Positions 17,108-57,067 of a DNA stretch of 64,000 nt are shown piece by piece. Source of the DNA: Lentzea albida (lineage in GTDB: Bacteria; Actinomycetota; Actinomycetes; Mycobacteriales; Pseudonocardiaceae); contig NZ_FOFV01000011.1 of the NCBI RefSeq assembly GCF_900111005.1, positions 1 to 64,000 of the forward strand, in the 5' to 3' direction. The notes beneath the pieces were generated by a model. The model worked only from the letters and a program-made list of their open reading frames with translations, did no database searches and was not told the origin of the DNA. Both the position numbers and the translations under genes were made by a program. Positions within the stretch are counted from its first letter, which is position 1; every line of letters begins with the position of its first letter.

Positions 17108-17121
17108 GGGACCATGGTCCC
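17108..17121. promoter_or_regulatory. DosR-like box upstream of pflB
   Basis: GGGACCATGGTCCC, within the perfect 18-bp palindrome CCGGGACCATGGTCCCGG at 17106-17123. It fits the DosR core GGGAC-N4-GTCCC at all ten positions. It ends 59 bases before the pflB start and lies in the gap between pflB and the upstream membrane-protein gene. Confidence 0.75.
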
Positions 17122-17128
17122 GGCCCCG

Positions 17129-17731
17129 TCAGGGCTTGCCCAGCAGGTGCACGAGGGCGGCGCCGGTGATCGCGGACATCGTGGCGGCCATCAGCAGGCC
17201 TCCGGCGGCACCGACGAGCAGGACGAGCGCGGTGGGTTCACCGGGCTGCCACAGGGGAGTGGTGAAGGCGGTGAACACGACCAGCCCCGCGCACCACCCG
17301 ATCCCCGTGGCCCACACCCACCGGAACGCGTGGTCGGCGTGGCGGCGCAGCACGAACCACTGCCCGACACCGATCGACAGCAGGACCCCCATGCCCGCGA
17401 CCGCGGCCAGCGGAAGCAGCACGGCGAGGGGCAGTGTGCCGAGCGGCTGTCCATAATGGACGGCGAGCATCGCGACCGACCAGGCGAACACGGCGCCCAG
17501 CGCGGTGACCGCGATCCAGTCCCGCGAGCTCAGCCTGGGGATGATGCGGCGGAGGGCGAGACACTGCGCCGCACCGAGCACCGCGCCCTCGATCCCTCCC
17601 GCGAGAACCAGCACGGGTCCTGAGGACGTCAACGCGCCCGTGATGGCAGGCGCTAGGAAACCGGTGAACTCCCCGGCGGTGACCCAGACGAACCACGCCC
17701 GCCACACGCCGGTCGTCAGCTTGGTGCTCAT
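17129..17731 (-). CDS. Predicted multi-pass membrane protein
   Basis: A 200-residue protein with about five or six hydrophobic helices and short loops, of unknown function. A Leu/Ala-rich final helix ends in HLLGKP. Its stop lies just beyond the pflB promoter region, and a DosR-like box lies 35 bases before its ATG. No clear Shine-Dalgarno sequence precedes the start (only GGGG), so initiation may be leaderless. Membership in the hypoxia set is inferred from the box. Confidence 0.65.
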
Positions 17732-17766
17732 CGCCCCACGATGGTCGGGTGGCCGGGCCGGTCACA

Positions 17767-17780
17767 GGGACGAAGGTCCT
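17767..17780. promoter_or_regulatory. DosR-like box between membrane protein and lycopene cyclase genes
   Basis: GGGACGAAGGTCCT matches nine of ten core positions. It lies 35 bases before the minus-strand start at 17731 and 58 bases before the plus-strand ATG at 17839, so it could serve both genes. Confidence 0.65.
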
Positions 17781-17838
17781 CGGTTCCGGGGTCCCCAAGC
17801 CGTTCCCCCTGCCGCGCGGCGGTGGTGAGAGTGGGGGC

Positions 17839-18991
17839 ATGACGCGCATCGTGATCGCCGGCGGGGGGGATGAGCGGGCTGAGCCTCGCGGCGCACCTCG
17901 CCGTCGCGGACCACCGGCATCCCGTGGTCGTCGTCGACGACGGCTCCCGCCCGGTCGAGGACGGGGCGTGGGCGTCCTGGAGCGCGGGAGCCGGCATGCT
18001 CGACGCCGCCGCACACCGGTGGTTCGACAAGATCCGGGTGCACGCGGGCGGCCGGACCACCGTGCTGCCGCTGGGGCGGTACCGGTACCGCGTCGTGCGG
18101 GGACGGGACCTCGCCGAAGTCGTCCACCGGTACACCGATCCGCTGCCGGGCTTCACCCGTCAGCGCGGGCACGTCGACGGGTTCACCGACGGCGGCCTCG
18201 TCGTGGACGGCCGGTTCGTGCGCGCTCGCTGGGTGTTCGACAGCGTGGTCGGGCCCGGCGAGACGCCGCCCCTCGACGCCCAGCTCGTCTTCCGCGGCTG
18301 GCGGGTCTCGAGCGAACGGGGTGTGTTCGACGCGGAGATCCCCACGTTGTTCGACTTCCGCACGTCCCAGACGCACGGGGCGAGCTTCGTCTACGTGCTG
18401 CCCGAAGACACTCATCACGCGCTGGTCGAGCACACGGCGTTCGTCGCACCGGGAGCCGCGCAGGACGAGACGGCACAGCGGGAGGCGCTCGCCGAGTACC
18501 TCGCGGAGGTCGCGGGTGCCACCGGGTACGAGGTCGAGCGGGAGGAGCACGCGGTGCTGCCGCTGTGCGCGGCGCAGCCTCCCCGCGCACACGGGCACGT
18601 GCTCACGATCGGAGCGCGGGGCGGCATGCTGAAGGCGTCCACCGGATTCGCCTACCAGCGCGTGCAACGGGACAGCGCCGCGATCGCCTGGTCGATGAGC
18701 CGGCACGGCCATCCTTTCGACCTGCCGCGGGCGCCGGGGCGGTTCCCCCTGCTGGACTCCGTGCTGCTCGACGTCGTCACCCGCGAGCCGGTGCAGCTCG
18801 AACGCGCGTTCGCCGCCCTGTTCCGCTTTCGCACGGCGGAACCCGCGCTGCGGTTCCTCGACGAGGAAACCACGCTGTCGCAGGAGATGCGGCTCTTCGC
18901 GGGCATGCCGGCGGCGACGTACCTCGCGGCCGCGCGGCGCCGTCTTACCTCCAGTGCCGGTGGTGCGTCTCGTGCCACCACGTCACGATGA
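17839..18991 (+). CDS. crtY: Lycopene cyclase, apparent frameshift in the FAD-binding motif
   Basis: A flavoprotein that cyclises lycopene ends to beta-ionone rings. Family blocks visible are SFVYVLPEDTHHALVEHT, GGMLKASTGFAYQRVQRDS and a C-terminal MRLFAGMPAATYL. ATG 17839 opens MTRIVIAGGG, the first strand and glycines of the FAD Rossmann motif. A run of seven G (17863-17869) then shifts the frame. With six G the reading would be AGGGMSGLSLAAHL, the expected GxGxxG. The intact frame begins at ATG 17870 and lacks the fingerprint. This is either a real +1 mutation, homopolymer slippage or a sequencing error. Confidence 0.75.
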
Positions 18992-19082: not shown

Positions 19083-19145
19083 CGAACGCTCCTCGGGTCG
19101 CGAACTCGACACGCCGAGACTCGCGGTCGGCACGGGCGGGCAGGA

Positions 19146-19159
19146 GGGCCGAAGGGCCC
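19146..19159. promoter_or_regulatory. DosR-like box between small membrane protein and tandem USP gene
   Basis: GGGCCGAAGGGCCC is a symmetric variant of the box (GGGNC-N4-GNCCC). It lies 63 bases from the minus-strand start at 19082 and 87 bases from the plus-strand ATG at 19247. Confidence 0.5.
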
Positions 19160-20129: not shown

Positions 20130-20143
20130 GGGTCCAACGTCAC
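20130..20143. promoter_or_regulatory. Weak DosR-like box upstream of CBS-BON gene
   Basis: GGGTCCAACGTCAC matches the GGGNC half fully and the right half in part (GTCaC). It ends 60 bases before the ATG at 20204, the same spacing as stronger boxes in the region, which is the main support for it. Confidence 0.4.
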
Positions 20144-20764: not shown

Positions 20765-20778
20765 CGGACGAAGGTCCC
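20765..20778. promoter_or_regulatory. DosR-like box upstream of single-domain USP gene
   Basis: CGGACGAAGGTCCC matches nine of ten core positions and ends 58 bases before the ATG at 20837. A second GGACC/GGTCC palindrome follows at 20779-20793, but its spacer is five bases, so it is not counted as a box. Confidence 0.6.
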
Positions 20779-24063: not shown

Positions 24064-24077
24064 GGGACGAGGGCCAC
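24064..24077. promoter_or_regulatory. Weak DosR-like box upstream of second CBS gene
   Basis: GGGACGAGGGCCAC has a perfect left half and a partial right half (GCCaC). It ends 62 bases before GTG 24140, matching the spacing class of the strong boxes. Confidence 0.45.
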
Positions 24078-29454: not shown

Positions 29455-29468
29455 GGGCCCGAGGTCCG
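29455..29468. promoter_or_regulatory. DosR-like box upstream of the M50 protease operon
   Basis: GGGCCCGAGGTCCG fits GGGNC-N4-GNCC(C) at nine positions. It lies 36 bases before ATG 29418, the short spacing class also seen at 17767, 54300 and 57054. Confidence 0.55.
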
Positions 29469-31430: not shown

Positions 31431-31762
31431 AGGCGTTCGCCACCGCTGCCGGACCGCGTCCGTCGTGCCGGTCCGGGCGGTGCCTGCGCTGGCGTTGAGG
31501 TCTTCTCCTCCAGGACGGCCGGTTGCCGGACCTCGCGGTGATCTCGCTGCTCGGCGGTGGTGAGCGCCGGGAGCGGGTGTTCGGGGCGTTCGCGCCCGTC
31601 GGGCTGCGGCACGTGCTCACCTCACTCCCGTTGACGCGGAACGCCGCAGTGCGTTGTCCTCAGGGTGAACGTCGAGGTCCTGCCGAAGCGGGGTCGAAAG
31701 GCTCCGGTGAAGCGGGCCGCCGGGCGCTGGGCAACCGAGACCGCCGGTGCTGGACTCGACGC
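31431..31762. other. Intergenic stretch upstream of second WS/DGAT gene
   Basis: About 330 bases between the acyltransferase relic and the WS/DGAT start. Open frames here have no recognisable domain. The only feature noted is the weak DosR-like box at 31691-31704. Confidence 0.4.
31691..31704. promoter_or_regulatory. Weak DosR-like box upstream of second WS/DGAT
   Basis: GGGTCGAAAGGCTC has a full GGGNC left half but a poor right half. It ends 58 bases before ATG 31763, the same distance as the strong boxes, which is the only reason to list it. Confidence 0.3.
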
Positions 31763-36689: not shown

Positions 36690-36703
36690 GGGTCTTTCGT
36701 CCC
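36690..36703. promoter_or_regulatory. DosR-like box upstream of USP-ABC operon
   Basis: GGGTCTTTCGTCCC, within CAGGGTCTTTCGTCCCTG (36688-36705). It matches nine of ten core positions and lies 59 bases before ATG 36630. Confidence 0.65.
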
Positions 36704-36731: not shown

Positions 36732-37055
36732 TCAGGACGCCGAACCGGCGGAGGCCTTCTTCCGCCGGTTCGAGACGTGCCGGTGCGAGCCGAAGACCGT
36801 GTGCACCAGCCCGATCCCGACGACGAAGCCGAAGTCGTACCAGTTGCCGTTGTTGCGGACCTCGTAGATGCTCACGTCGTCGGTGAAGAGCGAGATGAAG
36901 AACGTGACGGGGTAGATGAAACCCTGCCACACGCCCTTCCAGAACCCGGCGAGCTGCACACCGTCCACAGCGGACGCGGTGTTCGGACCGGCCGCGCACG
37001 CCGTGACCACCAGCAGCACGGTGGCGAGGAGAAGCCACAGCCGCGTGCTCCTCAT
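36732..37055 (-). CDS. Small predicted lipoprotein
   Basis: A 107-residue protein with a hydrophobic signal ([18 protein letters not shown]) whose VTAC is a lipobox (Cys near residue 20). The mature part includes a second hydrophobic stretch ([12 protein letters not shown]), a [19 protein letters not shown] region and a basic tail. Its ATG overlaps the stop of the GerW-like gene (ATGA). The sequence resembles small actinobacterial proteins found beside GerW homologues. Function unknown. Confidence 0.65.
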
Positions 37056-37451: not shown

Positions 37452-37465
37452 GGGCCTCAGGTCCT
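37452..37465. promoter_or_regulatory. DosR-like box between GerW-like operon and ABC exporter
   Basis: GGGCCTCAGGTCCT fits GGGNC-N4-GNCCC at nine positions. It ends 61 bases before the GerW-like start (37390) and 81 bases before the divergent ABC ATPase start (37547). Confidence 0.55.
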
Positions 37466-43406: not shown

Positions 43407-43420
43407 GGGACCCAGGTCCC
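43407..43420. promoter_or_regulatory. DosR-like box between phosphoketolase and HPF-like genes
   Basis: GGGACCCAGGTCCC matches all ten core positions and is a palindrome apart from its centre. It lies 58 bases before the xfp start and 80 bases before the divergent HPF-like start at 43501. Confidence 0.75.
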
Positions 43421-43500: not shown

Positions 43501-43803
43501 ATGAAGCACGCAGGCGCGGCGGAGATCGGCAACGTCGCGGTCGAGCTGGACGACCGGATCGCGGCGAGGGCCAGGCGGTACGCCCACGACAGGATCGCTC
43601 CTCTGGCCCGGTACGCGCCCGAACCGACCGATTTCGCACACGTGCGCCTCACCGCGGTGGGGCCCCGCACGATCGCCGCCCACGTGAACCTCGACGTCAA
43701 CGGCACGCCGGTGGTCGCGAAGGCGGAGGCCGCCACCTTCGAGGAGGCGCTGGACGCCGTGCGGGACCAGTTGCACGGCCGTCTGCTCAGGATGCACAAC
43801 TGA
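43501..43803 (+). CDS. Ribosome hibernation factor (HPF/RaiA)-like protein
   Basis: A 100-residue protein resembling the N-terminal ribosome-binding domain of HPF/RaiA: a strand-helix start ([20 protein letters not shown]), then strands [10 protein letters not shown] and [19 protein letters not shown], and a final helix ([18 protein letters not shown]). It lacks the C-terminal dimerisation domain of long HPF. ATG 43501 is preceded at five bases by GGAGG. Ribosome stabilisation by DosR-controlled HPF-like proteins is known in mycobacteria; the assignment here is by sequence pattern. Confidence 0.7.
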
Positions 43804-43809: not shown

Positions 43810-44265
43810 TCACGAATCGGGGGTCAGGGGCACCGGGGTGGAGGTGATCTCGTCGCGCACGGCCCTGGCCAGGGGGCCGACGGCGCGTGCCACCGCCGGG
43901 GTCATCCGGGTCCCGAACCCGGTGTCCGCGACCTCGACCGCGTAGACCACGAGGCGTTCCGGCCTGCGGTCGAGCGCCTCGGCGAGGGCCACGGCCTCCG
44001 GCACGCCGAAACCGTGGGAACTGGCGGCGGGGATGGTGTGCGGCAACGCCGTGCGGTACCACCGGCCAGGCGCGGTCGCCTTCGTGCGCACGGCGTCCAC
44101 GACCACGACGAGGGCAGCGTCCTCCCAGACCTCCATCAGCCGGACGGGGTCGCCGTCGCTGATCTCGGCGCGGACACCCGAGGCGGAGAGGAGGCGGGCC
44201 ACGGCGGGGCCGACACCGTCGTCGCGGCGGAACTCGTTGCCGACCCCGACCACCACGTGCTTCAC
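43810..44265 (-). CDS. Hydrogenase maturation protease
   Basis: A 151-residue HycI/HyaD-family endopeptidase that trims the C-terminus of the [NiFe] large subunit after nickel insertion. It has GVGNEFRRDDGVGPAVA at the N-terminus (the Asp serves as nickel-probing ligand), VVVVDAV with the second acidic ligand, and SSHGFGVPEAVALAEAL with the third-ligand His. GTG 44265 overlaps the large-subunit stop (GTGA). Confidence 0.88.
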   Translation of the reverse strand: MKHVVVGVGNEFRRDDGVGPAVARLLSASGVRAEISDGDPVRLMEVWEDAALVVVVDAVRTKATAPGRWYRTALPHTIPAASSHGFGVPEAVALAEALDRRPERLVVYAVEVADTGFGTRMTPAVARAVGPLARAVRDEITSTPVPLTPDS

Positions 44266-45557
44266 GTGCCCTCCCGGCTGAAGTCGAGGAAGTGCGCCGA
44301 GCACGAGATGCACGGGTCGTGGTTGCGGATGGTCTGCTCGCACAGCGACTGCAACGCGTGGTCGTCCAGGTGCTGGTGGGCGCGGACCACCCTGGTGACG
44401 TCGTCCTCGATCGCCGTCTGGTTCTGCGCCGTGGGCGGCACGATGTCCGCGGCGAGGACCCGTCCGTCCGCTCCGAGGTCGTAGCGGTGGTAGAGCAGCC
44501 CACGTGGTGCTTCCGTGGCGCCGTGTCCCGTGCCCGCTCGCGGGTGCACCTCGACGCAGGGCACCTCCGGGCGTTCGTACGAGTCGATGATGCTCAGCGC
44601 CTCCTCGATCGCGTACACGATCTCGACGGCGCGCACGACGATGCTCTTGAACGGGTTGCGGCACACCGTTCCCAGGCCCACCGCGGCGGCGGCCTCCCGT
44701 GCGATCAGGGACAGGCGGTCGGAGTTGAGGCTGTACCGGGCGAGCGGGCCGACGAGGAAGACCCGGTCGTCCAGCCGTGCGTGCAGCGCGGTGGAGTGCG
44801 GAACCTGGTGTTCGACGACGTGGTCGCCGAACTCGGACACCGGGAAGTCGATCCCGGTGCTGACGTGCGGGGTGCCGCGGTCGAGCGGGTACCCGTCGTC
44901 CTCGCGCAGCGCCAGCAGGTCGTGCGGTACGTCGAGGTCGGGGAACTCGAACCCCGCGACCCATTCCGCGGTCGCCAGCGCGTCGTACAGGGCTTCGCGC
45001 AGCGTTCCGGTGAGGCCACGCAGTTCCTCCGGTGCGGGAACGCGGTAGAAGCCGCCGACCCGCACGTTCACCGGGTGGATCGCGCGGCCGCCGACCAGGT
45101 CCATGATCCGGTTGCCCGCCTTCTTGAGCCGGAGCCCGCGCTCGACGGTGGCCCGGTCGGCGGCGGCGAGCGCGATCCCGTCGGGGAACCCGAGGAAGTC
45201 CGGTGCGTGCAGCAGGTAGACGTGCAACGCGTGACTGGAGATCCACTCGCCGCAGTACAGCAGTCTGCGCAGTGCCCGCAGCTGCCCGCCGACCCGGACC
45301 CCGCACGCGTCCTCGATCGCCTGGCAGGCGCTCATCTGGTAGGCGACGGGGCAGATGCCGCAGATGCGGGCGGTGATGTCGGGCGGTTCGCGGAAGTTCC
45401 GCCCGCGCAGGAACGCCTCGAAGAACCGCGGGGGCTCGTAGATGTCCAGCCGGACCTCGTCGACCCGGCCGCCGGTGGTGCGCACGTGCAACGCGCCCTC
45501 GCCCTCGACCCTGGCGAGGCCGGCGACCTGCAGCGTGCGGTTCGCGCGATGCGTCAT
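44262..45557 (-). CDS. hyhL: [NiFe] hydrogenase large subunit, group 3b-like
   Basis: The catalytic subunit that activates H2 in the cytoplasm. The nickel ligands are in [10 protein letters not shown] (near residue 65) and DPCISCSAH at the C-terminus; nine residues follow the final His and would be removed by the protease encoded next. The 431-residue length and gene context (diaphorase gamma and beta subunits) fit the NADP-linked sulfhydrogenase class 3b. In Mycobacterium smegmatis the homologous Hyh enzyme is hypoxia-induced through DosR. It is coupled to the small subunit by ATGA. Confidence 0.93.
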
Positions 45558-46291
45558 GTCCACTCCGCGTTGGCGTTGAAGGTGCGGAACACGAGTTCCA
45601 GCTCGTCGTCGCTCATCCCGGTGCGTTTCAGCAGTGGCACGAGCGCGGGTGCGTTGGGCCGGGTCATCGGACCGAAGCAGCCGTAGCAGCCGCGGTCGAC
45701 GGCCGGGCACAGCGCACCGCAGCCGGCGTGGGTGACCGGTCCGAGGCACGGGGTGCCGCGGGAGACCATCACGCAGGTGAGGCCGCGGCGTTTGCAGTCG
45801 GTGCACACGCTGGTGTCCGGCAGGTCGGGTGCCCGGCCGGCGAGCAACGCCGTGATCACCTCCAGCAGCTGGCCCCTGTCGATCGGGCAGCCGCGCAGTT
45901 CGTGGTCCACGGCGACGTGCGCGGAGATCGGGGTGGAGGTGTCCAGCGCCGAGATGTGCTCGGGACTCGCGTAGACGATCGAGCGGAACTCGTCGACGTC
46001 CGCGAAGTTCCGCAGGGCCTGGACGCCGCCGGAGGTGGCGCACGCGCCGACGACGACCAGCATGGCCGACTGCTCTCTGATCCACCGGATCCGTTCGGCC
46101 TCCTCGGGCGTGGTGACGGATCCCTCGACGATCGAGATGTCGTACGGGCCGGGTTCGCTCGCACCGGTCACCTCGAGGAAGTGCGCGATGTGCACCTGAT
46201 CCGCCAGCGGCAGCAGTTCGTCCTCGCAGTCGAGCAACGTGAGCTGACAACCGTCGCACGAGGTGAACTTCCACACCGCGATCGTGGGCAT
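45554..46291 (-). CDS. hyhS: [NiFe] hydrogenase small subunit, group 3b-like
   Basis: The electron-transfer subunit of 245 residues. The proximal cluster ligands start with [15 protein letters not shown] and continue with VGACATSGG and [26 protein letters not shown] lies near the end. No Tat signal peptide is present, as expected for a cytoplasmic group 3 enzyme. Confidence 0.93.
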
Positions 46292-47076
46292 CACAACTCC
46301 TTCGCCAGCAGCAGCGGTTCCGCCTCCGGGTAACCGGTGACAGGTCCGTCTCGGCACACCAGCAGCGGCCCGAGCTGGCAGTGCCCGCACAGGCCGATGC
46401 CGCACTGCATGCTGCGTTCCAGCGACACCTGGATGTTCCCGGCGGGCACGCCGCGTCCGAGCAACGTCCTGGCGCAGAAGCGCATCATCGGCTCCGGACC
46501 GCACAACAGCGCTGTGGTGCGCTCGGGGTCGAGCGGGATCGAGGCGAGCGGCTCGGTGACGAACCCGACGCGGCCGTGCCAGTCGTGGCCCCCGCGGTCG
46601 ACGGTCAGCACCACGTCCACATCGGACAGGGCGAGCAGGTCGCCGGCGTACAACAGGTCCTCCGGCGTCCGGGCCCCCGCGACGAGCACCGTGCGCCTGC
46701 TCGGGTGCCCGAGCACGGGCCGCAGGGGAGCGAGGCCGATCCCGCCCGCCACCACGAGCAGGTCCTCGACCCCGTCGAGCCGCCACGCCGTGCCGAACGG
46801 CCCCCGCACCCCGATCACCGTGCCGGGTGCGGCGTCGTGCAGCGCTCTGCTCACCGCACCGACCGCGCGCACGGTGTGCACGAGCGTGCCGTCGGCGGGT
46901 ATGCCGCTCACCGAGATCGGGATCTCGCCCACGCCGTGCGCGTAGAGCATCGCGAACTGACCCGGGCGGAACGCGGGCAGCGATCCGGTGACCGGCCGCA
47001 GCGTCAACGTCACGCAGTCGTGCGTCTCGACGGTGCGCTCCACCACCCGGCACGGAGTCGGGACCCAGGAAGTCAC
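46291..47076 (-). CDS. hyhG: Hydrogenase gamma subunit, FAD/NAD(P)-binding diaphorase
   Basis: A 261-residue ferredoxin-NADP reductase-type subunit linking the hydrogenase to NAD(P). FRPGQFAML is the flavin-binding part, [14 protein letters not shown] the nucleotide-binding loop, and [11 protein letters not shown] the NAD(P) motif. A 2Fe-2S motif closes it: [20 protein letters not shown], residues 220-240. GTG 47076 overlaps the stop of the cyclic-nucleotide-binding gene (GTGA). Confidence 0.92.
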
Positions 47077-47534
47077 GACGGGTTCCGGTACAGGTCGAGC
47101 AGGCGGATCCTGGTGGCCTGCAACCGGTTCAGCAGCGCGTCCAGCAGGATCAGCGACAGCTGGTAACCCAGTGCCGGGTCGTCGTCAGCGAGCCGGCGCA
47201 ACTCCGCTGTGTCCACGACCGCGGCCCTGGTCGGTGTCACGACCGTCGCGCCGAAGTGCCACCGGTAGGGCGGCACGAGCCACGACCAGCCGACCAGTTC
47301 TCCCGCGCCGACGCTCTGCAGCACCATCCGGCCGTTCTGGGGCACCGCGGTGTCGATCGTGACGCACCCGGACAGCACGACCCAGCACTGGTCGGCGAGC
47401 CCGCCCTCGTCGAACAGCCGGACGCCCTGGTCGTAGGTCTCGATTCGGCTCACACCGGCGATCGCCGCACGTTGGGTGTGCGAGAGGCGGGCGAGCAGCG
47501 GCAGCGCGTCGAGCTCCGTCATGGGGATCGTCAT
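47073..47534 (-). CDS. Stand-alone cyclic-nucleotide-binding (Crp-like sensor) domain protein
   Basis: A 153-residue cNMP-binding domain without a helix-turn-helix. The beta-roll is visible ([21 protein letters not shown] near 35-55, [20 protein letters not shown] near 70-90). The phosphate cassette Glu/Arg are not clearly conserved, so the ligand may not be cAMP. The gene is embedded between the beta and gamma hydrogenase genes with 4-base overlaps on both sides, implying a fixed role in or on the complex. Its ATG 47534 is inside the hyhB stop. Confidence 0.8.
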
Positions 47535-48595
47535 GGTCGTCCACCGCCTGTCCTGGCCAGGGCCGCTGCTTCCTCGGTGATGTCGATGCCGGCCGGGCAC
47601 CAGGCGATGCACCGGCCGCAACCGACGCATCCCGAGGTGCCGAACTGGTCGTGCCACGTACCGAGCTTGTGCGTCATCCACTGGCGGTAGCGAGAGGCAC
47701 CGGACGTGCGCACCGCGCCGCCGTGGAGGTAGGAGAAGTCGATCTCGAAGCAGGAGGCCCACCGCTGCGCGCGCTCGGCGTTGCCGTCGAGGTCCGTCCG
47801 GTCCTCGACGGAGACGCAGAAGCAGGTGGGGCACACCATCGTGCAGTTGCCGCAGGTGAGGCACCGCTCGGCGACCGCCTCCCAGTGGGCCGAGTCCCGG
47901 TTGGCGGCGAGCAGGTCGCGCAGGTCGACCTCGGGCATGGACCGGCCCATCCGGCCCGCCGCCGCGGCGACGTCCCTGTCCGCCAGTTCGACGTCGTGCC
48001 GTGCCGCCGGACGGGACGGCACGCGCGTCAGCACCGCGGCACCTTCCTCCGTGCCGGACGTGGCGAGGAATCGGTGGCCGTCGCCGTCGACGCGTTCGGT
48101 CAGGGCGATGTCGTACCCGGAGCCGGCGCCGGGCCCGCAGCCCATGGACGAGCAGAAGCACACCTCGCCGGGTTCGGTGCACTGCGCGGCGACGACGAAG
48201 GGCGCCGGGCCGCCGACGACCTGCCGCAGCTTCGTGATCGCGGCGAGGTCGCACGGGCGCACGCCGAAGAACGCGTAGGAGACCGGGCTTTCGGGCGCGG
48301 CGTGGAATCCGGTGCCGTCGCTGGAGAGCAGGGCGCGCCGCGGCGGGTGGAGGAACCGCTTCCACGACTGCGGACCGGCGGAATGGCCGAACACGGCCTC
48401 GTCCTCCCGCCGGCGCACCCGGTAGTGGCCGGGCCCCGTCTCCACCCCCCACCCGCCCGGCAGGTCGTCCGCGGAGCCGAGCTCGGCGAGGGTGATCGCG
48501 TCGTCCCGCAGCACCGGGCCGACGACGACCCTCCCGTCCTGGGCGAGCACGCGGATGAGCGCGTCGAGGCCTCGCAGGTCGAGCACGACGTCCAT
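47531..48595 (-). CDS. hyhB: Hydrogenase beta subunit, 4Fe-4S protein
   Basis: A 354-residue sulfhydrogenase beta-type iron-sulfur protein. Conserved cysteine clusters are GVRPCDL, CTEPGEVCFCSSMGCGPG, CLTCGNCTMVCPTCFC and CVGCGRCIAWCPAGID, the last two binding 4Fe-4S clusters. ATG 48595 is preceded by GGAGG. It heads the operon hyhB-cNMP-hyhG-hyhS-hyhL-protease and faces hsp20 across two DosR-like boxes. Confidence 0.9.
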   Translation of the reverse strand: MDVVLDLRGLDALIRVLAQDGRVVVGPVLRDDAITLAELGSADDLPGGWGVETGPGHYRVRRREDEAVFGHSAGPQSWKRFLHPPRRALLSSDGTGFHAAPESPVSYAFFGVRPCDLAAITKLRQVVGGPAPFVVAAQCTEPGEVCFCSSMGCGPGAGSGYDIALTERVDGDGHRFLATSGTEEGAAVLTRVPSRPAARHDVELADRDVAAAAGRMGRSMPEVDLRDLLAANRDSAHWEAVAERCLTCGNCTMVCPTCFCVSVEDRTDLDGNAERAQRWASCFEIDFSYLHGGAVRTSGASRYRQWMTHKLGTWHDQFGTSGCVGCGRCIAWCPAGIDITEEAAALARTGGGRP

Positions 48596-48649
48596 GTCCA
48601 CCACCTCCAGGTCAGAACCGATGGTCACCGGTTCTCCGAGGTGTCCCCA

Positions 48650-48663
48650 GTGACGAAAGACCT
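48650..48663. promoter_or_regulatory. DosR-like box 1 between hydrogenase operon and hsp20
   Basis: GTGACGAAAGACCT is a degenerate match (GkGAC-N4-GaCCt). It lies 54 bases before hyhB and centres 22 bases (two helical turns) from the second box. Confidence 0.45.
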
Positions 48664-48671: not shown

Positions 48672-48685
48672 GGCTCTTCCGTCCC
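48672..48685. promoter_or_regulatory. DosR-like box 2 between hydrogenase operon and hsp20
   Basis: GGCTCTTCCGTCCC has a perfect right half and a partial left half. It lies 62 bases before the hsp20 ATG at 48748, the standard spacing of the region. Confidence 0.5.
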
Positions 48686-48747: not shown

Positions 48748-49158
48748 ATGTCAACGTTGGCCCGCCGTCCGGCGAGCTCTCTGCTGCCGGACCTGTGGGA
48801 GGTCTTCGACGCCACGTGGCCGTTCGGCACCCGGCACCCGATGCACATCGAGGACTTCGTCGAGGAGGGCGCCTACGTCGTTCGCGCCGAGTTGCCCGGC
48901 CTGGACGCGGCGAAGGACATCGACGTGAGCGCGACGGGCGGCATGCTGACCATCACGGCTCAGCGCGAGGAGGCGAGGAAGGAGCAGCACCGCTCCGAGT
49001 TCCGGTACGGGTCGTTCACCCGCACCGTGTCGCTGCCGGCGGGAGCGGACACCACGAAGATCTCCGCCAAGTACGAGAAGGGCATCCTCGAGGTGCGCGT
49101 GCCGGTCGCGGTGCCGCCGGAGGAACGCAAGATCGAGATCGACGTCCAGCAGGACTGA
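48748..49158 (+). CDS. Hsp20/alpha-crystallin small heat-shock protein
   Basis: A 136-residue ATP-independent chaperone. The alpha-crystallin domain runs from about residue 30 to 120 (YVVRAELPGLDAAKDIDVSA, then FTRTVSLPAGADTTKISAKY and the closing GILEVRVPV). HspX of this family is the signature DosR-regulon product in M. tuberculosis. ATG 48748 is preceded by AAAGGAG. It ends at a hairpin shared with hypE. Confidence 0.92.
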   Translation: MSTLARRPASSLLPDLWEVFDATWPFGTRHPMHIEDFVEEGAYVVRAELPGLDAAKDIDVSATGGMLTITAQREEARKEQHRSEFRYGSFTRTVSLPAGADTTKISAKYEKGILEVRVPVAVPPEERKIEIDVQQD

Positions 49159-49162: not shown

Positions 49163-49210
49163 GGGTGAGCAGCTGCCCCGGATCAGCAGATCCGGGGCAG
49201 CTGCTCACCC
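49163..49210. terminator. Bidirectional hairpin between hsp20 and hypE
   Basis: A perfect 22-bp inverted repeat (49163-49184 with 49189-49210) with loop AGCA. One arm contains the last eight codons of hypE and its stop. It lies right after hsp20. The stem is GC-rich with no T run, as common in actinomycetes. Confidence 0.75.
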
Positions 49211-50208
49211 ACGAGCACGTCCACCACACGCGAGGAACCGACGAGGGTGCGGGCCAGCACGCGTCCGGCCACACCCTCCACCACCTCACCGACGACCGCC
49301 GTCCCCGCGCCTTCCGGCAGGGCCCGCATCGCCGCCACGACGGCGTCGGCGGAGCCGGGTGCCACGAAGGCGACCAGACATCCCTCGTTGGCCACGTGCC
49401 ACGGGTCCAGTCCGAGCAGGTCGCACGCGGCTGCCACGGGGACGGGCACCGGGACGGCCGACTCGACCACCTCGACGCACACGCCGGACGCGGCCGCGAT
49501 CTCGTTGAGCGACCCGGCCAACCCCCCGCGCGTGGGGTCGCGCAGCGCGTGGACGTCCGCGCCGCCGGCCGCGATCATCGCGGCGACCAGGTCGTTCAGC
49601 GGCCGGCTGTCGGAGGAGACGTCGGCGTCGAAGCCGAGGCCCTCGCGTGCGCTGAGGATCGCGATCCCGTGCAGCCCGACCGGTCCCGAGACGAGGACGA
49701 CGTCGCCCGGCTCGGCGCCCGCCGCGGACGGCCGTGCGTCCCGCAACCGCATCCCGACACCGGTCGTGGTGACGTACAGGCCGTCGGCGGCGCCCCGGCC
49801 GACGACCTTGGTGTCGCCGGTGACGATCGGGACGCCGGCCGCGCGGGCCGCGGCCGCCGCCGACCGCGTGATGTCGCGCAGCTCGGAGAGGGGCAGGCCC
49901 TCCTCGACGATGTAGGCGAGGCTGAGCGCGAGCGGGCGGGCCCCGCGCATGGCGAGGTCGTTCACGGTGCCGTGCACGGCGAGCGACCCGATGTCGCCAC
50001 CGGGGAAGAACCGCGGCGTGACGACGTAGCTGTCGGTGCTGAACACCTGGTTCAGGCCTATCAGCGCGGCGTCCTCCAGCGGCGCGGTGAGCCCCAGCTC
50101 CGGCGTGATGACGTCGGTGAGCAGTTCGGCCATCAGCTGACCGCCGGAGCCGTGGCCGAGCAGGACGCGCTCGGTCTCCGGGTGGGGCACGGGGCAGGAG
50201 GACGTCAT
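49183..50208 (-). CDS. hypE: Hydrogenase maturation protein HypE
   Basis: A 341-residue ATP-dependent dehydratase that turns a carbamoyl group on its C-terminal cysteine into the cyanide ligand of the active-site iron. The C-terminus is the diagnostic PRIC. Other motifs are [15 protein letters not shown] and [16 protein letters not shown], plus DPTRGGLA. It is coupled to hypD by ATGA (50205-50208). Confidence 0.95.
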
Positions 50209-51302
50209 CGGTGCTCCGGGGTTCGGCCGGCGTTGAAGAACGCCGCGCAGGTTCCTTCGCTGGACACCATCGGTGCGCCCAGCGGTGTGCGGGGAGTGCA
50301 GGTGCGCCCGTAGGCGGAGCAGTCGGTCGGCAGCCGGGTGCCGCGCAGGACGTCGCCCGCGATGCAGTCCGGTGACTCCCGCGTCACGAGGTCGCCGACC
50401 TCGAACCGGACGGCGGCGTCGTGACGGGCGAACTCGGGTCTGAGCGCGAGGCCGCTCGCGGGGATGGGACCGATGCCGCGCCAGGTCCGGTCGGTCACCT
50501 GGAAGACGCGCCGGATCGCGTCCTGGGCGGCCGTGTTGCCGGACCTGCGCACGGCGCGCGCGTACTGGTTCTCGACCTCGGCCCGGCCCTGTTCGAGCTG
50601 CCGCACGGCCATCAGCACTCCTTCGAGCAGGTCCAGCGGTTCGAACCCGGTCACCACGACCGGTACCCCGTACGCCCGCGCGATCGGCTCGTACTCCGTC
50701 CACCCCATCACCGCGCAGACGTGCCCGGCCGCGAGGAACGCCTGCACCTGCGCGTCCGGGTCGTCCATGAGGGCGGTGATGGCGGGCGGCACGAGCACTT
50801 GGCTGACCAGCGCGCTGAAGTTCGTCACGCCGGTCGCCGCGGCGTGCAGCACCGCCATCGCGTTGGCGGGAGCGGTGGTCTCGAACCCGACCGCCAGGAA
50901 CACGACCTCGCGGCCGGGGTTCTCCGCGGCTGTGCGGACGGCGTCGAGAGGCGTGTAGACGACCCGCACGTCCGCCCCGCGGGCCTTGAGCGACAGCAGG
51001 TCACCGGACGTCCCCGGTACCCGGAGCATGTCGCCGTAGCTGGTGAGGATCACATCCGGGCGCGCGGCGATGGCGAGTGCCCTGTCGATGGTCTCGAGCG
51101 GTGTCACGCAGACCGGGCAGCCGGGGCCGTGGATCATCCGCATCCCGGCGGGCAGCAGGCGGTCGATGCCCTGCCGCACGATCGTGTGCGTCTGGCCGCC
51201 GCAGACCTCCATGATCGTCCACGGCGCCGTGGCGGTGGTCCGCAGCTCGGCCAGCAGGCGGCGGGCGAGCACGGGATCCCGGTACTCCTGCAGGTGCTTC
51301 AC
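50205..51302 (-). CDS. hypD: Hydrogenase maturation protein HypD
   Basis: A 365-residue 4Fe-4S scaffold protein on which the Fe(CN)2CO unit is assembled with HypC. Motifs are [30 protein letters not shown] and a C-terminal cysteine region including [13 protein letters not shown] and [20 protein letters not shown]. Start overlaps the hypC stop (ATGA-type overlap, 51299-51302). Confidence 0.95.
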
Positions 51303-51544
51303 GGTCCCAGCTCCGTCTCGATCGCGTCCGGCATCGCGCGGAGCACCGCGAGCGTCCTGGCCGCCTCCTCCTCGTCGACCAGCGCGATGGCGAAGCCGAC
51401 GTGCACGATCACGTGGTCACCGACCTCCGCCTCGGGGGTGTAGACGAGGCAGACCGGTCTGCGCAGCCCGTCGAAGTCGACGGTCCCCGACCGCGGCTCG
51501 GTGTCGTCCACGGTCACGATCCGTCCCGGGATCCCCAGGCACAT
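51299..51544 (-). CDS. hypC: Hydrogenase maturation chaperone HypC
   Basis: An 81-residue chaperone. It begins [10 protein letters not shown], with the essential Cys2, and has [21 protein letters not shown], quoted as its conserved core. It partners HypD and delivers the iron centre to the large subunit. ATG 51544 overlaps the hypF stop by one base. Confidence 0.94.
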
Positions 51545-53736
51545 CAGCAGTCCCTCCCCGCCAGCCGGGCGGCGGCCACGACGGCCTGCCCGTAGCTGAT
51601 CCCACCGTCGTTGACCGGTACCCGTTCGCCCGCGAGCACCGCGAACTCGCCCAGCTCACGGCGGAGGGCGTCGACGAGCCCGCGGTTCTGGAACACCCCA
51701 CCGCCCACGCAGACCGTGCGGACGGTGCCCGCCGTCTCCCGCACGAGTGCCGCCGTGACCTCCGCGATCGTCGTGTGGAACCGCGCGGCGGCCACGCCGG
51801 CCGGGTCGCCGCACGTGACCAGGTCGCGCAGGGTCGGCAGCGGGTCGTACACCCACAACCCGTCGCGCCTGTGCAGCGTCCAGTCGAGCGCCGGCCCGCT
51901 GTGCGCGGCGGCCGCGGCCTCCAGCAGGACGGCCGCCTCGCCCTCGTACGAGTTCTCGTCGCAGAGGCCGAGCAACGCGGAGGCCGCGTCGAACAACCTG
52001 CCCGCACTCGACGTCAGGGGGCTGTTCATCCGCCGTTCGACCATGCGCCGCACGAGCGCCGATTCCGCCGTGGGACGGAGGTCCGGAATGGACGGTCCGC
52101 CGAAGTCCTCCGCGCCGTGGAGGTAGGCGAGCACCATCCTGGACGGCCGCCGGACCGCGACCTCGCCGCCGGGCAGCGGCACCAGGCCGAACCGCGCGAC
52201 CCGCCGGTACCCGCGGTAGGTCGCGAGCAGGACCTCACCGCCCCACAGCGTGCCGTCGTCGCCCAGCCCCAGGCCGTCGTAGGCGACTCCGACGAACGGG
52301 CCGCGGACGCCGTGCTCCGCCGCGGTCGCCGCGACGTGTGCGTGGTGGTGCTGAACGGGAATCCGGCGGTCGCGCGGCCACCGCCGGGCGTGCCGGGACG
52401 AGAGGTAACGGGGGTGCAGGTCGTGCGCGCAGTGCTCCGGGGCCACACCCTGCCACCGGCACAGGGTCTCGGCGGTGTGCTCGAAGGCGGCGAGCGTGTC
52501 GGCGTTCTCCAGGTCACCGGTGTGCGGGCCGAGGATCGCGCGATCACCGACGGCGAGCGCCGCGGTGTGCTTGAGCTGAGCGCCCAGCGCGAGCACGGGG
52601 ACCGGTGACGCGGCGGGCAGCGGCATCGGTGCGGGGGCGAATCCCCTTGCCCTGCGCACCACGCGCCCGGCGCGCACGACCGAGTCGTCGTAGCGGGCGA
52701 GGATCGGCCGGTCGTGCGAGAGGACGCCGTCGACCAGGGGGCCGAGCACCGCGTGCGCGTGCTCGTCGAGGATGGTGATGGGCTCGCCGGACCGGTTGCC
52801 GCTGGTCACCACGAGCGGCTGCGCCAGGTCGTGCAGGAGCAGGTGGTGCAGGGGGCTGTACGGCAGGAACAGGCCGACGTCCAGGTCCGCCGTGCGGGAC
52901 GGCAGCACGACGATCGGAGCGGCGGGCGACCGCAGCAGAGCCGCCGCCTCGGCGTCCACAACGGACAGTTCGCGTGCTTGGCCGAGGTCGCGCACCATCA
53001 CCGCCAGTGGTTTGCGCGGCCGGTGCTTGAGCTCGCGGAGCCGGATGACGGCGTCCTCGTCCGCCGCGGCGCACACCAGCTGGTAGCCACCGACGCCCTT
53101 GACCGCGACCACGCCACCCCGCCGGACCGCCGCCACGGCCAGTTCCAGCGCCTCCTCACCGGTCGCGTCACCCCAGCGCAGCCGGGGTCCGCAGGCCGGG
53201 CAGGCCACCGGCTCGGCGTGGAACCTGCGGTCTGCCGGATCGCGGTACTCGGCCGCGCACGAGGGGCACAGCGGAAAGGCCGCCATCGTCGTGCGCGTCC
53301 GGTCGTAGGGCAGCGACGCCACGATCGTGGCACGCGGGCCGCAGTCGGTGCAGTTGACGAACGGGTACCGGTAGCGCCGGTCCCCGGGGTCGAACAGCTC
53401 GGCCACGCAGGCGTCGCACGTCGCCAGGTCGGGCACGACCGTGCGCGGTCCGGCCTCGAACCCGCTGTCCAGCACCGCGAACCCGTCCTGCGCGGTGGTC
53501 CCGCCCGGTGTGACGGTGATGCGTTCGACCCGCGCGTTCCGGGGCGCCCTGTCGTGCAGCGCGCGCCGGAACTCCGCGAGCGCCTCCGCCGGTCCGCACG
53601 CGGTGATCACGACATGTCCGCCGGCGTTGCGCACGTCGCCGCTGATGCCGAGTTCCGTCGCCAGCCGGTGGACGTGCGGCCGGAACCCGACGCCCTGCAC
53701 GGCGCCGTGCACCTCGATGCGTTCGGTCGTGCTCAC
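51544..53736 (-). CDS. hypF: Carbamoyltransferase HypF
   Basis: A 730-residue protein that makes the carbamoyl group for HypE. An acylphosphatase domain comes first (GAVQGVGFRPHVHRLA), then two zinc-finger modules (CDACVAELF, NCTDCGPR, CPSCAAEY, CPACGPRL), a YrdC-like domain (KGVGGYQLVCAAAD) and a Kae1-like domain with HHAHVAA and VGVAYDGLGLGDDGTLWGGE. GTG 53736 opens the operon hypF-hypC-hypD-hypE. hypA and hypB are not in the window. A DosR-like box lies 66 bases upstream. Confidence 0.95.
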   Translation of the reverse strand: MSTTERIEVHGAVQGVGFRPHVHRLATELGISGDVRNAGGHVVITACGPAEALAEFRRALHDRAPRNARVERITVTPGGTTAQDGFAVLDSGFEAGPRTVVPDLATCDACVAELFDPGDRRYRYPFVNCTDCGPRATIVASLPYDRTRTTMAAFPLCPSCAAEYRDPADRRFHAEPVACPACGPRLRWGDATGEEALELAVAAVRRGGVVAVKGVGGYQLVCAAADEDAVIRLRELKHRPRKPLAVMVRDLGQARELSVVDAEAAALLRSPAAPIVVLPSRTADLDVGLFLPYSPLHHLLLHDLAQPLVVTSGNRSGEPITILDEHAHAVLGPLVDGVLSHDRPILARYDDSVVRAGRVVRRARGFAPAPMPLPAASPVPVLALGAQLKHTAALAVGDRAILGPHTGDLENADTLAAFEHTAETLCRWQGVAPEHCAHDLHPRYLSSRHARRWPRDRRIPVQHHHAHVAATAAEHGVRGPFVGVAYDGLGLGDDGTLWGGEVLLATYRGYRRVARFGLVPLPGGEVAVRRPSRMVLAYLHGAEDFGGPSIPDLRPTAESALVRRMVERRMNSPLTSSAGRLFDAASALLGLCDENSYEGEAAVLLEAAAAAHSGPALDWTLHRRDGLWVYDPLPTLRDLVTCGDPAGVAAARFHTTIAEVTAALVRETAGTVRTVCVGGGVFQNRGLVDALRRELGEFAVLAGERVPVNDGGISYGQAVVAAARLAGRDC

Positions 53737-53802: not shown

Positions 53803-53816
53803 GGGTCCTTGGTCCC
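53803..53816. promoter_or_regulatory. DosR-like box upstream of hypF operon
   Basis: GGGTCCTTGGTCCC matches nine of ten core positions. It lies 66 bases before the hypF GTG, slightly longer than the usual spacing. Confidence 0.65.
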
Positions 53817-54264: not shown

Positions 54265-54299
54265 GCCTCCAGCGTCGGGGCGGTGCGGACGCCGGCCCA

Positions 54300-54313
54300 G
54301 GGGCCATCGTCCC
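54300..54313. promoter_or_regulatory. DosR-like box between membrane protein and P-type ATPase genes
   Basis: GGGGCCATCGTCCC fits GGGNC-N4-GNCCC fully. It lies 35 bases from the minus-strand ATG at 54264 and 58 bases from the plus-strand ATG at 54372, so both spacing classes meet at one box. Confidence 0.65.
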
Positions 54314-54371
54314 CGGTCCGCCGGGACGTCACGCCCTGTCCGCGGGTCCCGGGCTTCGCTGGACTGCCCCC

Positions 54372-56948
54372 ATGACTGTCGCGACAACCGGCCTCTCGTC
54401 GGCCGAAGCCGCCAGACGGCTGCACCGGGACGGACCGAACGCATTGCCGGCCGCACGACGGCGGCATCCACTTCTGCTGCTGGTGGAACAGCTGGTGCAC
54501 TTCTTCGCGCTGATGCTGTGGGCGGCGGCGGTGCTGGCGCTGGTCGCGGGCATGCCCGCGCTCGCGGTGGCCATCGCGGTGGTCGTCGTGCTGAACGGGC
54601 TCTTCGCGTTCGCCCAGGAGTACCGCGCCGACCGGGCCGCCCAGCGCCTCGGCGACCTCATGCCGCTGCGGGCCACCGTGCGCCGGGACGGTCACCTGCG
54701 GCAGGTGGACGCGGCGGAGCTGGTCGTCGGTGACGAGTTGGTGCTGGAAGCGGGCGCACGGGTCTGCGCGGACGGCGAGGTGCTGGCCGAGGCGGGACTC
54801 GCCGTCGACGAGTCGATGCTGACCGGCGAGAGCGTGCCGGTGAGACCCGTTGCGGGACAACAGGTCCACGCGGGCACCTACGTCGCCGAGGGCGAGGCTT
54901 CGGTGCTCGTGACCGCTATCGGTGCGCACACGGCGCTCGCGGGCATCGCGGCGCTGACCCAGGAGGCGAAGCCACCGCGCAGTCCGCTGGCGGCTCAGCT
55001 GCACAGGGTCGTGGTGGTGGTCGCGGTGATCGCGGTCGCCGTGGGCACCGCGTTCTTCGGCGTCGCGGTCCTGCTCGGGCTGCCCGTCGCCGAAGGGTTC
55101 CTGTTCGCGATCGGGGTCACGGTGGCGCTCGTGCCGGAAGGGCTGTTGCCGACCGTCACGTTGTCGCTGGCCCGTGCGGCGCAGGGCATGGCGGCCAGGA
55201 ACGCGCTGGTGCGCAGGCTCGACGCGGTCGAGACGCTGGGCGCGACCACGTTCATCTGCACCGACAAGACCGGCACCCTGACCCGCAACGAGATGGCGGT
55301 CGTCCGGGTGTGGACACCCCGGGGTGCGGTGACCGTGCACGGCAACGGGTACGAACCGACCGGCAGCGTGGACGGCCCCGCCGAGGCGGTCGACCAGGTG
55401 CGCGCACTGGCTTCGAGCGCCAAGCGGTGTTCTCCCACCGCCCACGCGCGCCACCACGACGACCGGTGGCTCCCCGTCGGTGATCCGATGGAGGTCGCGC
55501 TGCACGTCCTCGCCGCACGCCTGGGCGTGGACGGCCCCTCGGCGGAAGCCGTGCGGTTCCCGTTCGACCCGAGGCGCCGCCGTTCGTCCGTCGTGGACCT
55601 CGACGGTGTGCACGTGACCGGTGCCCCGGACTCGGTCCTGCCCCTGTGCGGCGCGACGCCGGGCGCGCAGGAGGCACTGGCCGGCCTGGCCGAACGCGGG
55701 CTGCGGGTGCTGGCGGTGGCGCGGCGGGAGGGCAGAGCGGGTGACGGGGAGTCCTGGCAGCACGCGGAACGTGACCTGGAACTGCTCGGTCTGGTGGGCC
55801 TGCAGGACCCGCCGCGCGACGACGTGGCCGAGGCCATCGCCTCGTGCAGGTCCGCCGGCATCCGCATCGCCATGATCACCGGGGACCACCCCGCCACGGC
55901 GCGGGCCATCGCGCGGCAGGTGGGCCTGCTCGGTCCCGACGCCCTCGTCCTGGAAGGCGCGGACCTGCCCGCCGGGCAGGATGAGCTGGGGTCGCTGCTG
56001 GACCGCGACGGCGTCGTGGTCGCCCGCGTCACCCCGGAGGACAAGCTGCGGATCGCGACGGCCCTGCAGCGCAGGGGACACGTCGTCGCCATGACCGGTG
56101 ACGGGGTCAACGACGGTCCGGCCCTGCGCGCCGCCGACATCGGCGTCGCGATGGGCGCCTCCGGCACCGACGTGGCCCGGGAGGCCGCCGACCTGGTGCT
56201 GCTGGACGACCACTTCGGCACGATCGTCGCCGCGGTCGAACTGGGCCGTGCCACGTTCGCCAACATCCGCCGCTTCCTGACCTACCACCTCACCGACAAC
56301 GTCGCCGAGCTGACGCCGTTCGTGGTGTGGGCGCTGTCCGGCGGGTCGATCCCACTGGCCATCAGCGTGCTGCAGGTGCTCGCGCTGGACATCGGCACCG
56401 ACCTCCTGCCCGCACTCGCACTGGGAGCCGAACCGCCCACGAAGCGCACCATGCGCGGACGGCTGCACACCGGGTCGCTCATCGACGGAGGACTGCTGCG
56501 CCGGGTGTTCCTGGTGCTCGGTCCCGCCGAGGCGGTGATGTCGATGCTGGCGTTCCTCGCGGTGCTGGTCGCGGGTGGGTGGAGTCCCGGTGGTACGGCG
56601 AGTGCGGCGTTGCTCGCCACGGCGTCCGGCACCGCGTTCACCGCGATCGTCCTCGGTCAGCTCGCGAACGCCTACGCGTGCCGCAGCGCCAGTCGGTCGG
56701 GCTTCCGCGTCGGGTTGCGCGGCAACAGGTTGCTGCTGTGGGCGGTGGCGTTCGAGCTGGCCGTGCTGGCGGTCTTCCTGTTCCTGCCGCCACTTCCGGA
56801 ACTGCTCGGAGGACACGCCCCCTCGGCACTGGGCTGGGGCCTGGCACTGGCAGCCGTCCCGGTCGTGCTGCTGGCCGACGCCGCCGCGAAGGCCTTCCTC
56901 GCCAGGAAGGTCGGTCTCACGCGGACCGATCGGTCCGCCACGACCTGA
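54372..56948 (+). CDS. Cation-transporting P-type ATPase (P2A type, CtpF-like)
   Basis: An 858-residue ion pump. The N-terminal cation ATPase motif ([19 protein letters not shown]) precedes the helices; TGES lies in MLTGESVPV, the phosphorylated Asp in [12 protein letters not shown] near residue 298, and the hinge motif in [17 protein letters not shown] near 580. The helix [20 protein letters not shown] carries the PEGL motif of calcium-type pumps. CtpF is the DosR-regulon P-type ATPase of M. tuberculosis. The ion is not determined here. No clear ribosome site precedes ATG 54372. Confidence 0.92.
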
Positions 56949-57053
56949 ACCCCGCGCCGGGTACGGAACGGATCGATCCGGGACGAAGGCCTCTCTAGGA
57001 GGACGGTCGTCCGCGCGCCCCGGAACGGCAGCGTGCCAACGGCGGTCACATCG

Positions 57054-57067
57054 GGGACCTTCGTCCC
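57054..57067. promoter_or_regulatory. DosR-like box upstream of acsA-dehydrogenase-ACP operon
   Basis: GGGACCTTCGTCCC matches all ten core positions. It ends 35 bases before ATG 57103 (short spacing class). Confidence 0.75.

Follow-up and report, generated by a model that had tools for sequence, protein, structure and literature searches.

DosR-type palindromes precede fermentation, hydrogenase, and ribosome-hibernation genes in a predicted low-oxygen island of Lentzea albida

The closest described relatives of the system considered here are DosR/DevR of mycobacteria, a switch by which the tuberculosis bacterium endures lack of oxygen, and OsdR of Streptomyces. A consensus of GGGHCNWWNGNCCC has been published for DosR (PMC2947987). 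In Mycobacterium smegmatis, the third NiFe hydrogenase, Hyh, is controlled by DosST/DosR and mediates hypoxic fermentation (PMC13098282). In Streptomyces coelicolor, OsdR (SCO0204) and the kinase OsdK are encoded side by side in a box-dense region, SCO0167–SCO0219; the OsdR box is AGGGCCGATCGGCCCT, binding to predicted sites was shown by gel shift, and the targets include universal stress proteins (USPs), alcohol dehydrogenase, nitroreductase, and pyruvate phosphate dikinase (PMC5069765). In Streptomyces lividans, transcripts for a putative pyruvate formate-lyase (PFL; the SCO0206 orthologue), pyruvate phosphate dikinase, USPs, alcohol dehydrogenase, and cydA rise with osdR; there, the annotation treats the PFL activase as a putative pseudogene fragment, and the authors do not decide whether control of the cytochrome bd operon is direct (PMC6302529, the sole paper found in a literature search on OsdR and pyruvate formate). 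Here, we describe a family of GGGAC/GTCCC-type palindromes in Lentzea albida, located in the first 64,000 bases (the window) of contig NZ_FOFV01000011.1 (C29; 318,919 bases). The genome comprises 9.44 Mb in 40 contigs, with 99.85% completeness.

We read these palindromes as predicted binding sites of a DosR/DevR/OsdR-type regulator that drives a low-oxygen programme, and give this reading a probability of roughly 0.88. The original prediction had taken a DosR orthologue to be in control, while noting none in the window. This is now supported: the boxes are dense in intergenic DNA, keep their position in related species, and lie near an orthologous regulator with an adjacent kinase, and this DosR copy co-occurs with PFL and hydrogenase genes. 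From its sequence features, the system appears to be that of Streptomyces OsdR and mycobacterial DosR in another genus. Less expected is the predicted target set, which is unusually fermentative and includes PFL, phosphoketolase, a NiFe hydrogenase, and ribosome-hibernation genes (Table 1).

Each site was scored by the number of bases matching GGGAC/GTCCC, out of 10, and genes were called with a codon-usage script. All 16 of the 14-mers originally quoted are present where they had been placed, three of them (17108, 43407, and 57054) as full matches. Seven of the 11 main sites, which had been described as GGGNC-N4-GNCCC, fit that pattern strictly; the other four (17767, 20765, 29455, and 37452) are each off by one end base. 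The description of the boxes as intergenic holds for 15 of the 16, which lie 22 to 79 nucleotides (nt) upstream of the closest start codon in our gene calls, but not for 29455, which extends into the initial codons of the M50 protease gene as called.

The signal lies in the placement of the sites, not in their raw number. Ten sites in the window score at least 9/10, and eight of these are intergenic, with intergenic DNA making up 8.6% of the window. A comparison with coding sequence and with unrelated promoters, proposed along with the original prediction, comes out in its favour: between positions 14001 and 64000, intergenic sites of this grade number 8 per 3,512 positions versus 3 per 76,338 in 37 control stretches (Fisher p = 2e-9), or 2.28 versus 0.039 per kb, a 58-fold difference, and the corresponding coding densities are 0.043 and 0.023 per kb (2 per 46,475 and 15 per 663,181 positions). 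The controls (740 kb) were taken at round, non-random positions on seven other contigs and exclude ten stretches built around perfect sites elsewhere in the genome; including those (nine intergenic sites in ~21 kb) still gives a control intergenic density of ~0.12 per kb. The early part of the window is box-free, as had been noted, with no intergenic site in positions 1–14000 even at 8/10.

Perfect sites number 17 in the whole genome, compared with three for the reversed pattern. Three of the 17 fall in the window (Poisson P = 2.3e-4) and six in the first 141 kb of C29 (Poisson P = 3e-7). Those on C29 beyond the window lie at 95064, 97858, and 140822, the last of which is no promoter site because it sits between two convergent genes; the 11 outside C29 comprise six intergenic sites and five within called genes. 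The spacer centre is 83% A/T in 15 of the genome's own sites, matching the published consensus GGGHCNWWNGNCCC (PMC2947987). Promoter palindromes of this kind are enriched over background when scored as GGGAC/GTCCC matches, not as the exact string.

The original prediction looked to a dosR/dosS-type pair elsewhere in the genome, and such a pair lies 6.1 kb past the end of the window, where a DosR orthologue stands beside a DosS/DosT-type kinase. By a GerE search, the genome encodes 112 LuxR-type domains, and one of them (C29:70166-70333) lies within the island DosR gene (C29:70127-70780, minus strand, 217 amino acids). Its product has DevR as its best solved match (3c3w, E = 5.8e-88) and conserves the phosphorylation and DNA-recognition segments, with LAEKTVKNYVS identical in the alignment. 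An attempt to name the regulator with NCBIfam failed, with no DosR model among the 25 of 86 families shown and the best models below cut-off. The kinase gene (C29:68435-70114, 559 amino acids) is convergent with that of the island DosR; its first GAF domain matches the haem domains of DosT (2vzw, 2.3e-59) and DevS, and the HPPM segment is conserved, so that the product is a predicted haem sensor of the DosS/DosT type. The pair sits mid-island. The promoter of dosR itself carries a box of only 8/10, 63 nt upstream of the gene; five of six relatives have a box of 8/10 or more no further than 5 nt from this place, and the sixth has one of 7/10.

It is conceivable that an unrelated regulator reads a similar G+C-rich palindrome and that the nearness of DosR is coincidental. 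We regard this as highly improbable, given that the closest solved relative of the island regulator is DevR, that the motif agrees with the published DosR and OsdR consensus (PMC2947987, PMC5069765), and that the genes overlap the OsdR core of USPs, alcohol dehydrogenase, nitroreductase, and pyruvate phosphate dikinase (PMC5069765).

Conservation further supports the DosR-type reading. It was assessed in island segments of six genomes of the same genus, where a box counted as kept if it reached 8/10 and its distance to the start codon differed by no more than 5 nt; promoters pooled from related species, here and for box geometry, are non-independent. Where the gene has a strong box of its own, 52 of 60 orthologous promoters retain the placement, versus 25 of 89 for other genes (p = 6e-13). 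Seven control palindromes were kept in 3–20 of 137–149 promoters of genes without a strong match, and in a total of one of 19 where the gene had such a match. Comparison of 36 promoter pairs, representing 14 sites, shows the ten core bases to be most alike (identity 0.82), followed by the spacer (0.71) and the two flanks (0.54 and 0.61). Sites 17767, 20130, 20765, 36690, 43407, and 54300 are well kept. The hydrogenase pair 48650/48672, which the original prediction had graded weak, is kept too, a support that was not foreseen. Five of the eight misses fall in one genome, G001, in which phosphoketolase and a 200-amino-acid gene lie in a different operon and the 9/10 box of a nitroreductase/CBS-BON pair lies at a different distance.

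The boxes also show a regular geometry. In a set of 122 promoters that carry a box of at least 9/10, drawn from the island and its relatives, the distance of the best box to the start codon peaks at 35, 58–59, and ~81 nt, in steps of 23 nt, and the spacing at which a second box attains its highest mean score is 23 bp (4.5, against an average of 3.1). Twin boxes 23–24 bp apart precede cydA and the nitroreductase/CBS-BON pair. The idea that the 35-nt distance marks leaderless promoters was discarded, as TANNNT occurs at the predicted place in none of 15 promoters.

Within the genus, an island-type DosR (at least 88% identity) is found in 15 of 24 genomes, the source genome included. Among 23 genomes compared for co-occurrence, PFL is present in nine of the 14 with island DosR and none of the nine without it (p = 0.003), and the hydrogenase in seven of 14 and none of nine (p = 0.02); these p values are uncorrected for shared ancestry. 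The neighbours of PFL vary by species. A perfect box lies directly upstream of PFL in the source genome and in G013; in G006 and G004, the boxes before PFL score 8/10; in G008, PFL occupies the third position of an operon headed by a 9/10 box; and in G001 and G022, it follows alcohol dehydrogenase with an 8/10 head box, succeeded in G001 by phosphoketolase and acetate kinase. A box of at least 8/10 thus heads the PFL gene or operon in seven of nine genomes, and one of at least 9/10 in three of nine. An 8/10 box alone is weak evidence, because control intergenic DNA has ~1 per kb.

The association extends beyond the genus. The matches listed include 80 PFL loci, a non-exhaustive set of which 36 are actinobacterial. 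In 14 of these 36, a box of at least 9/10 lies within 170 nt of the called PFL start, compared with 31 of the 298 remaining starts there (p = 4e-5) and 42 of 1,800 shuffles. No box of this grade occurs at the 44 listed non-actinobacterial PFL loci, for which the 200 nt before the match start were scored with no gene calling; most of these loci are lower in GC, and none of the ten with at least 60% GC upstream reaches 9/10. DosR and kinase share the fetched segment at seven of the 36 listed actinobacterial loci, and DosR is found at E 1e-60 in 19 of 23 of the listed PFL-locus genomes searched. Microbacterium and Agromyces, DosR-less at this threshold, have PFL box scores of just 6 and 7. cydA was dropped as a universal DosR target: its box is perfect at 20 of 20 loci in the genus, but one of at least 9/10 occurs at five of 28 loci from 21 genomes outside it and at none of eight Streptomyces loci.

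Several observations weigh against the DosR-type reading. Over the whole window, the strict GGGNC-N4-GNCCC motif is not enriched, with eight matches (the seven quoted and a coding one at 27421) versus 7.8 expected from dinucleotide shuffles, and one-mismatch GGGACN4GTCCC matches number 10 versus 9.7; these counts, no different from chance, were dropped as evidence. They are in keeping with the view that G+C-rich palindromes are simply expected at the composition of the window (mostly 70–75%, ~72% GC) and that the original prediction selected the intergenic ones. We nevertheless hold chance to be an extremely improbable explanation, contradicted by the 58-fold intergenic density, the placement kept across species, and the 17 perfect sites against three reversed. 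Genome-wide counts of AGGGACN4GTCCC were likewise set aside as evidence: 14 genomes with island DosR show only a modest excess (69 matches versus 33 for the reversed control), and nine genomes without it have 30 versus 29. Four quoted sites (19146, 29455, 24064, and 31691) are weakly or not conserved, and the PFL box at 17108 is in place in none of five relatives; PFL sits in differing operons, and this box was rejected as a conserved orthologous site. In G011 and G017, PFL follows a nitroreductase with no box of at least 8/10 in the 1.5 kb read. Second-box scores are also high at spacings of 14, 15, and 22 (4.0, 3.9, and 3.9). Outside the genus, two organisms without DosR at E 1e-60 carry boxes: Jonesia has a perfect cydA box and an 8/10 PFL box, and Cellulomonas septica has a 9/10 PFL box. 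The genome itself holds four DosR-like regulators with a common recognition segment, FLAEKTVKNYV, so that we can only infer which regulator acts at each box, and the cydA boxes are retained in genus members without island DosR.

One of these regulators, a second DosR (C19:319784-320434; L240:9784-10434), is 79% identical and has its own haem-GAF-type kinase. Another lies on C22, where two DosR-type boxes precede cydA (C22:86838-86875; L011:10001-10038) and a GAF-type kinase and a DosR-like regulator are encoded downstream. The boxes could be read mainly by the second DosR or by the C22 or C30 regulator, an explanation to which the segment common to all four regulators lends weight, as do a second-DosR match (78–81% identity) listed in all 24 genus genomes and a cydA upstream box that is perfect at 20 of 20 loci, species without island DosR included (the second cydA box scores at least 8/10 at 19 of 20). 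We consider it unlikely, though deserving serious attention: PFL and hydrogenase track island DosR, no intergenic box of at least 9/10 occurs in the 20 kb around the second DosR or the C30 regulator, the C22 regulator lies ~7 kb from the cydA pair, and the C22 and C30 kinases as called are without the NHPPMH segment. The two DosR systems probably cross-talk or divide the labour between them, since four regulators share the segment and cydA boxes persist in the absence of island DosR.

With the island DosR as the principal reader of the boxes, we infer the following course from oxygen signal to metabolic outcome, including its phosphotransfer, binding, and activation steps. As oxygen falls, the haem-GAF kinase would lose O2 from its haem and phosphorylate DosR. 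Dimers of phospho-DosR would then bind boxes, single or spaced by 23 bp, at ~20 island promoter regions and at others such as cydA. This would activate PFL and its activase together with phosphoketolase and acetate kinase, yielding ATP by substrate-level phosphorylation, and would switch on the group-3b-like NiFe hydrogenase, which could dispose of electrons as H2. Alcohol dehydrogenase, universal stress and CBS proteins, and ribosome-hibernation factors would also be switched on.

The island is larger than the 50 kb originally proposed, as promoter sites run to ~118.6 kb of the contig; it spans ~17 to 119 kb of C29, about 100 kb. Past the window, intergenic sites of at least 9/10 number one in 64–84 kb (p = 0.05), four in 84–104 kb (p = 4e-5), two in 104–124 kb (p = 0.007), and two in 124–144 kb (p = 0.02), with p values uncorrected for segment number, and the same scan shows no clear enrichment on C29 past 144 kb. 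Box-bearing promoter regions number ~20 between ~17 and 119 kb, with a few elsewhere, such as cydA.

Pfam was used to name 50 window proteins, 20 site-flanking proteins beyond the window, and a few more, and NCBIfam was applied to 10 proteins. Beyond the window on C29, boxes precede genes for USP, nitroreductase, CBS-BON, alcohol dehydrogenase, aminotransferase, and a second ribosome-hibernation protein, among others. The last of these (C29:117777-118538; L003:13777-14538) stands behind a 9/10 box, with the S30AE C-terminal domain matched twice. The island also encodes a P-type ATPase with a C-terminal hemerythrin domain (C29:76482-78743; L001:12482-14743; PF00122 and PF01814), a possible oxygen- or iron-responsive pump, and a protein that combines acetyltransferase, CoA-binding, succinyl-CoA-ligase-like, and ATP-grasp domains (C29:78756-81353; L001:14756-17353) and resembles an ADP-forming acyl-CoA synthetase or a protein acetyltransferase. 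A DDE-type transposase gene (546-1937) lies at the contig start, outside the box-bearing island.

Within the window (Table 1), the assignment of PFL draws on an equivalog model, the glycyl-radical domain, and an adjoining activase, all of which are present. The hydrogenase operon encodes a protease, large and small subunits, and NAD-binding, cNMP-binding, and Fe-S proteins; the best NCBIfam models for the subunits are those of sulfhydrogenase, with scores below the curated cut-offs, and the subunit set is present. The cyclic-nucleotide-binding protein of this operon (47073-47534) has 153 amino acids. The assignments in the acetate-CoA ligase operon rest on NF003313 (over cut-off), PF00676, PF02779, PF00198, PF00364, and PF00550. 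At two of the poorly kept sites, relatives carry boxes elsewhere: both relatives compared for 24064 have a different 8/10 box 98–100 nt before the CBS gene, and G015 has a 10/10 box ~38 nt away from the 29455 place.

Table 1. Palindromic boxes and associated genes in the window, with scores out of 10 and the fraction of relatives in which each box is kept.
Feature	Position	Strand	Context or basis
PFL-activating radical-SAM protein	14059..14790	-	TIGR02493 over cut-off, end to end
PFL (glycyl radical enzyme)	14787..17033	-	TIGR01255 over cut-off; PF02901, PF01228
Box 10/10	17108..17121		74 nt before PFL start; identical one upstream of PFL in G013
Box 9/10	17767..17780		Between divergent 17129-17731 (-) and 17870-18991 (+); in place in 4/5 and 4/4 orthologous promoters
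Box 8/10, weak	19146..19159		Before double-USP gene 19247-20125; kept in 1/7
Box 8/10	20130..20143		Before CBS-BON gene 20222-20764; kept in 3/3
Box 9/10	20765..20778		Before USP gene 20837-21271; kept in 5/6, two at 10/10
Box 8/10, weak	24064..24077		Before CBS gene; kept in 0/2; unsupported as functional
Box 8/10	29455..29468		Overlaps called M50/CBS protease start; kept in 1/3
Box 7/10, weak	31691..31704		Before WS/DGAT; kept in 0/3; unsupported
Box 9/10	36690..36703		Before USP gene 36178-36630 (-); kept in 5/5
Box 8/10	37452..37465		Between YtfJ-like 37052-37390 (-) and ABC transporter 37556-38434 (+); 4/6 (YtfJ-like), 1/2 (ABC)
Acetate kinase	40008..41015	-	PF00871
Phosphoketolase (XFP)	41030..43348	-	PF09364, PF03894, PF09363
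Box 10/10	43407..43420		Common to divergent phosphoketolase and short HPF-like genes; 3/4 and 5/7 relatives' segments
Short ribosome-hibernation-factor-like protein	43501..43803	+	PF02482 over cut-off; TIGR00741 below cut-off
NiFe hydrogenase operon (group 3b/Hyh-like)	43810..48628	-	PF01750, PF00374, PF01058, PF00175, PF00027, PF17179
Box 7/10, weak	48650..48663		Before hydrogenase operon; 8/10 in place in 4/5 (hydrogenase head), 2/4 (Hsp20)
Box 8/10, weak	48672..48685		Before hydrogenase operon and Hsp20; at least 8/10 in place in 3/5 (hydrogenase head), 1/4 (Hsp20)
Hsp20-family protein	48748..49158	+	PF00011
AIRS-domain HypE-like, HypD, HypC, HypF	49183..53736	-	PF00586/PF02769, PF01924, PF01455, PF17788/PF22521
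Box 9/10	53803..53816		Before hypF operon; 8/10 in place in the only relative compared, G017
Box 9/10	54300..54313		Between 141-amino-acid gene (-) and P-type ATPase (+); kept in 4/5 and 3/4
Cation P-type ATPase (CtpF-like in the original prediction)	54483..56948	+	PF00122, PF00689
Box 10/10	57054..57067		Before acetate-CoA ligase operon; 9/10 in place in the only relative compared, G017
Operon: acetate-CoA ligase, E1 alpha, E1 beta, lipoyl E2, 83-amino-acid PP-binding (acyl-carrier-like) protein	57103..62788	+	

To our knowledge, how actinomycetes presumed to be strict aerobes survive without oxygen is an open question, and the island suggests one direct answer to it. If the DosR-type reading is correct, a regulator known for dormancy in mycobacteria and Streptomyces here switches on formate-lyase, the phosphoketolase–acetate kinase route, and hydrogenase, which would provide substrate-level ATP together with electron disposal. 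A broader proposal, which is tentative and to which we give slightly less than even odds, is that DosR-type regulation forms a phylum-wide switch to PFL fermentation in supposedly strictly aerobic Actinobacteria, with this genus carrying an additional DosR and kinase and a variable island for fermentation, hydrogenase, and ribosome hibernation, its operons reshuffled from species to species but mostly box-headed, so that DosR dormancy there would include fermentative energy conservation beyond mere arrest. The island offers testable promoters and a ready contrast of species with and without island DosR. The conserved cydA boxes in the genus bear on the direct-target point left open in the Streptomyces study (PMC6302529).

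Compared with the mycobacterial DosR/DevR-DosS-DosT system, the island has an orthologous regulator, a GAF kinase, and boxes resembling GGGHCNWWNGNCCC (PMC2947987). The resemblance extends to the putative regulon. Mycobacterial DosR targets comprise USP, Hsp20, CBS, P-type ATPase, and hydrogenase genes, and the same classes recur among the predicted targets here. We know of no report that glycyl-radical PFL or phosphoketolase is a DosR target in Mycobacterium tuberculosis. The hydrogenase here differs from Hyh of M. smegmatis in sharing one island with PFL, phosphoketolase, and acetate kinase.

Likeness to the OsdR system lies in the adjacency of regulator and kinase, the box-dense surroundings, and a gene list that overlaps the OsdR core (PMC5069765). 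The differences concern both the boxes and the genes. The GGGAC form prevails here, with A as the fourth base in 0.80 of 15 sites that were themselves chosen by GGGAC match; regulator and kinase genes are convergent, and the genome has a second DosR/kinase pair. Unlike the OsdR system, the proteins put to Pfam, which cover only part of the island genes, include no nitrate reductase. The island in turn adds boxed genes for phosphoketolase/acetate kinase, NiFe hydrogenase, acetate-CoA ligase, and ribosome hibernation. The link between PFL and OsdR is itself not new, since it is visible in the S. lividans transcript data (PMC6302529); what the locus counts contribute is its breadth. In contrast to S. 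lividans, the PFL activase here is a full-length model match, and cydA is preceded by two conserved boxes.

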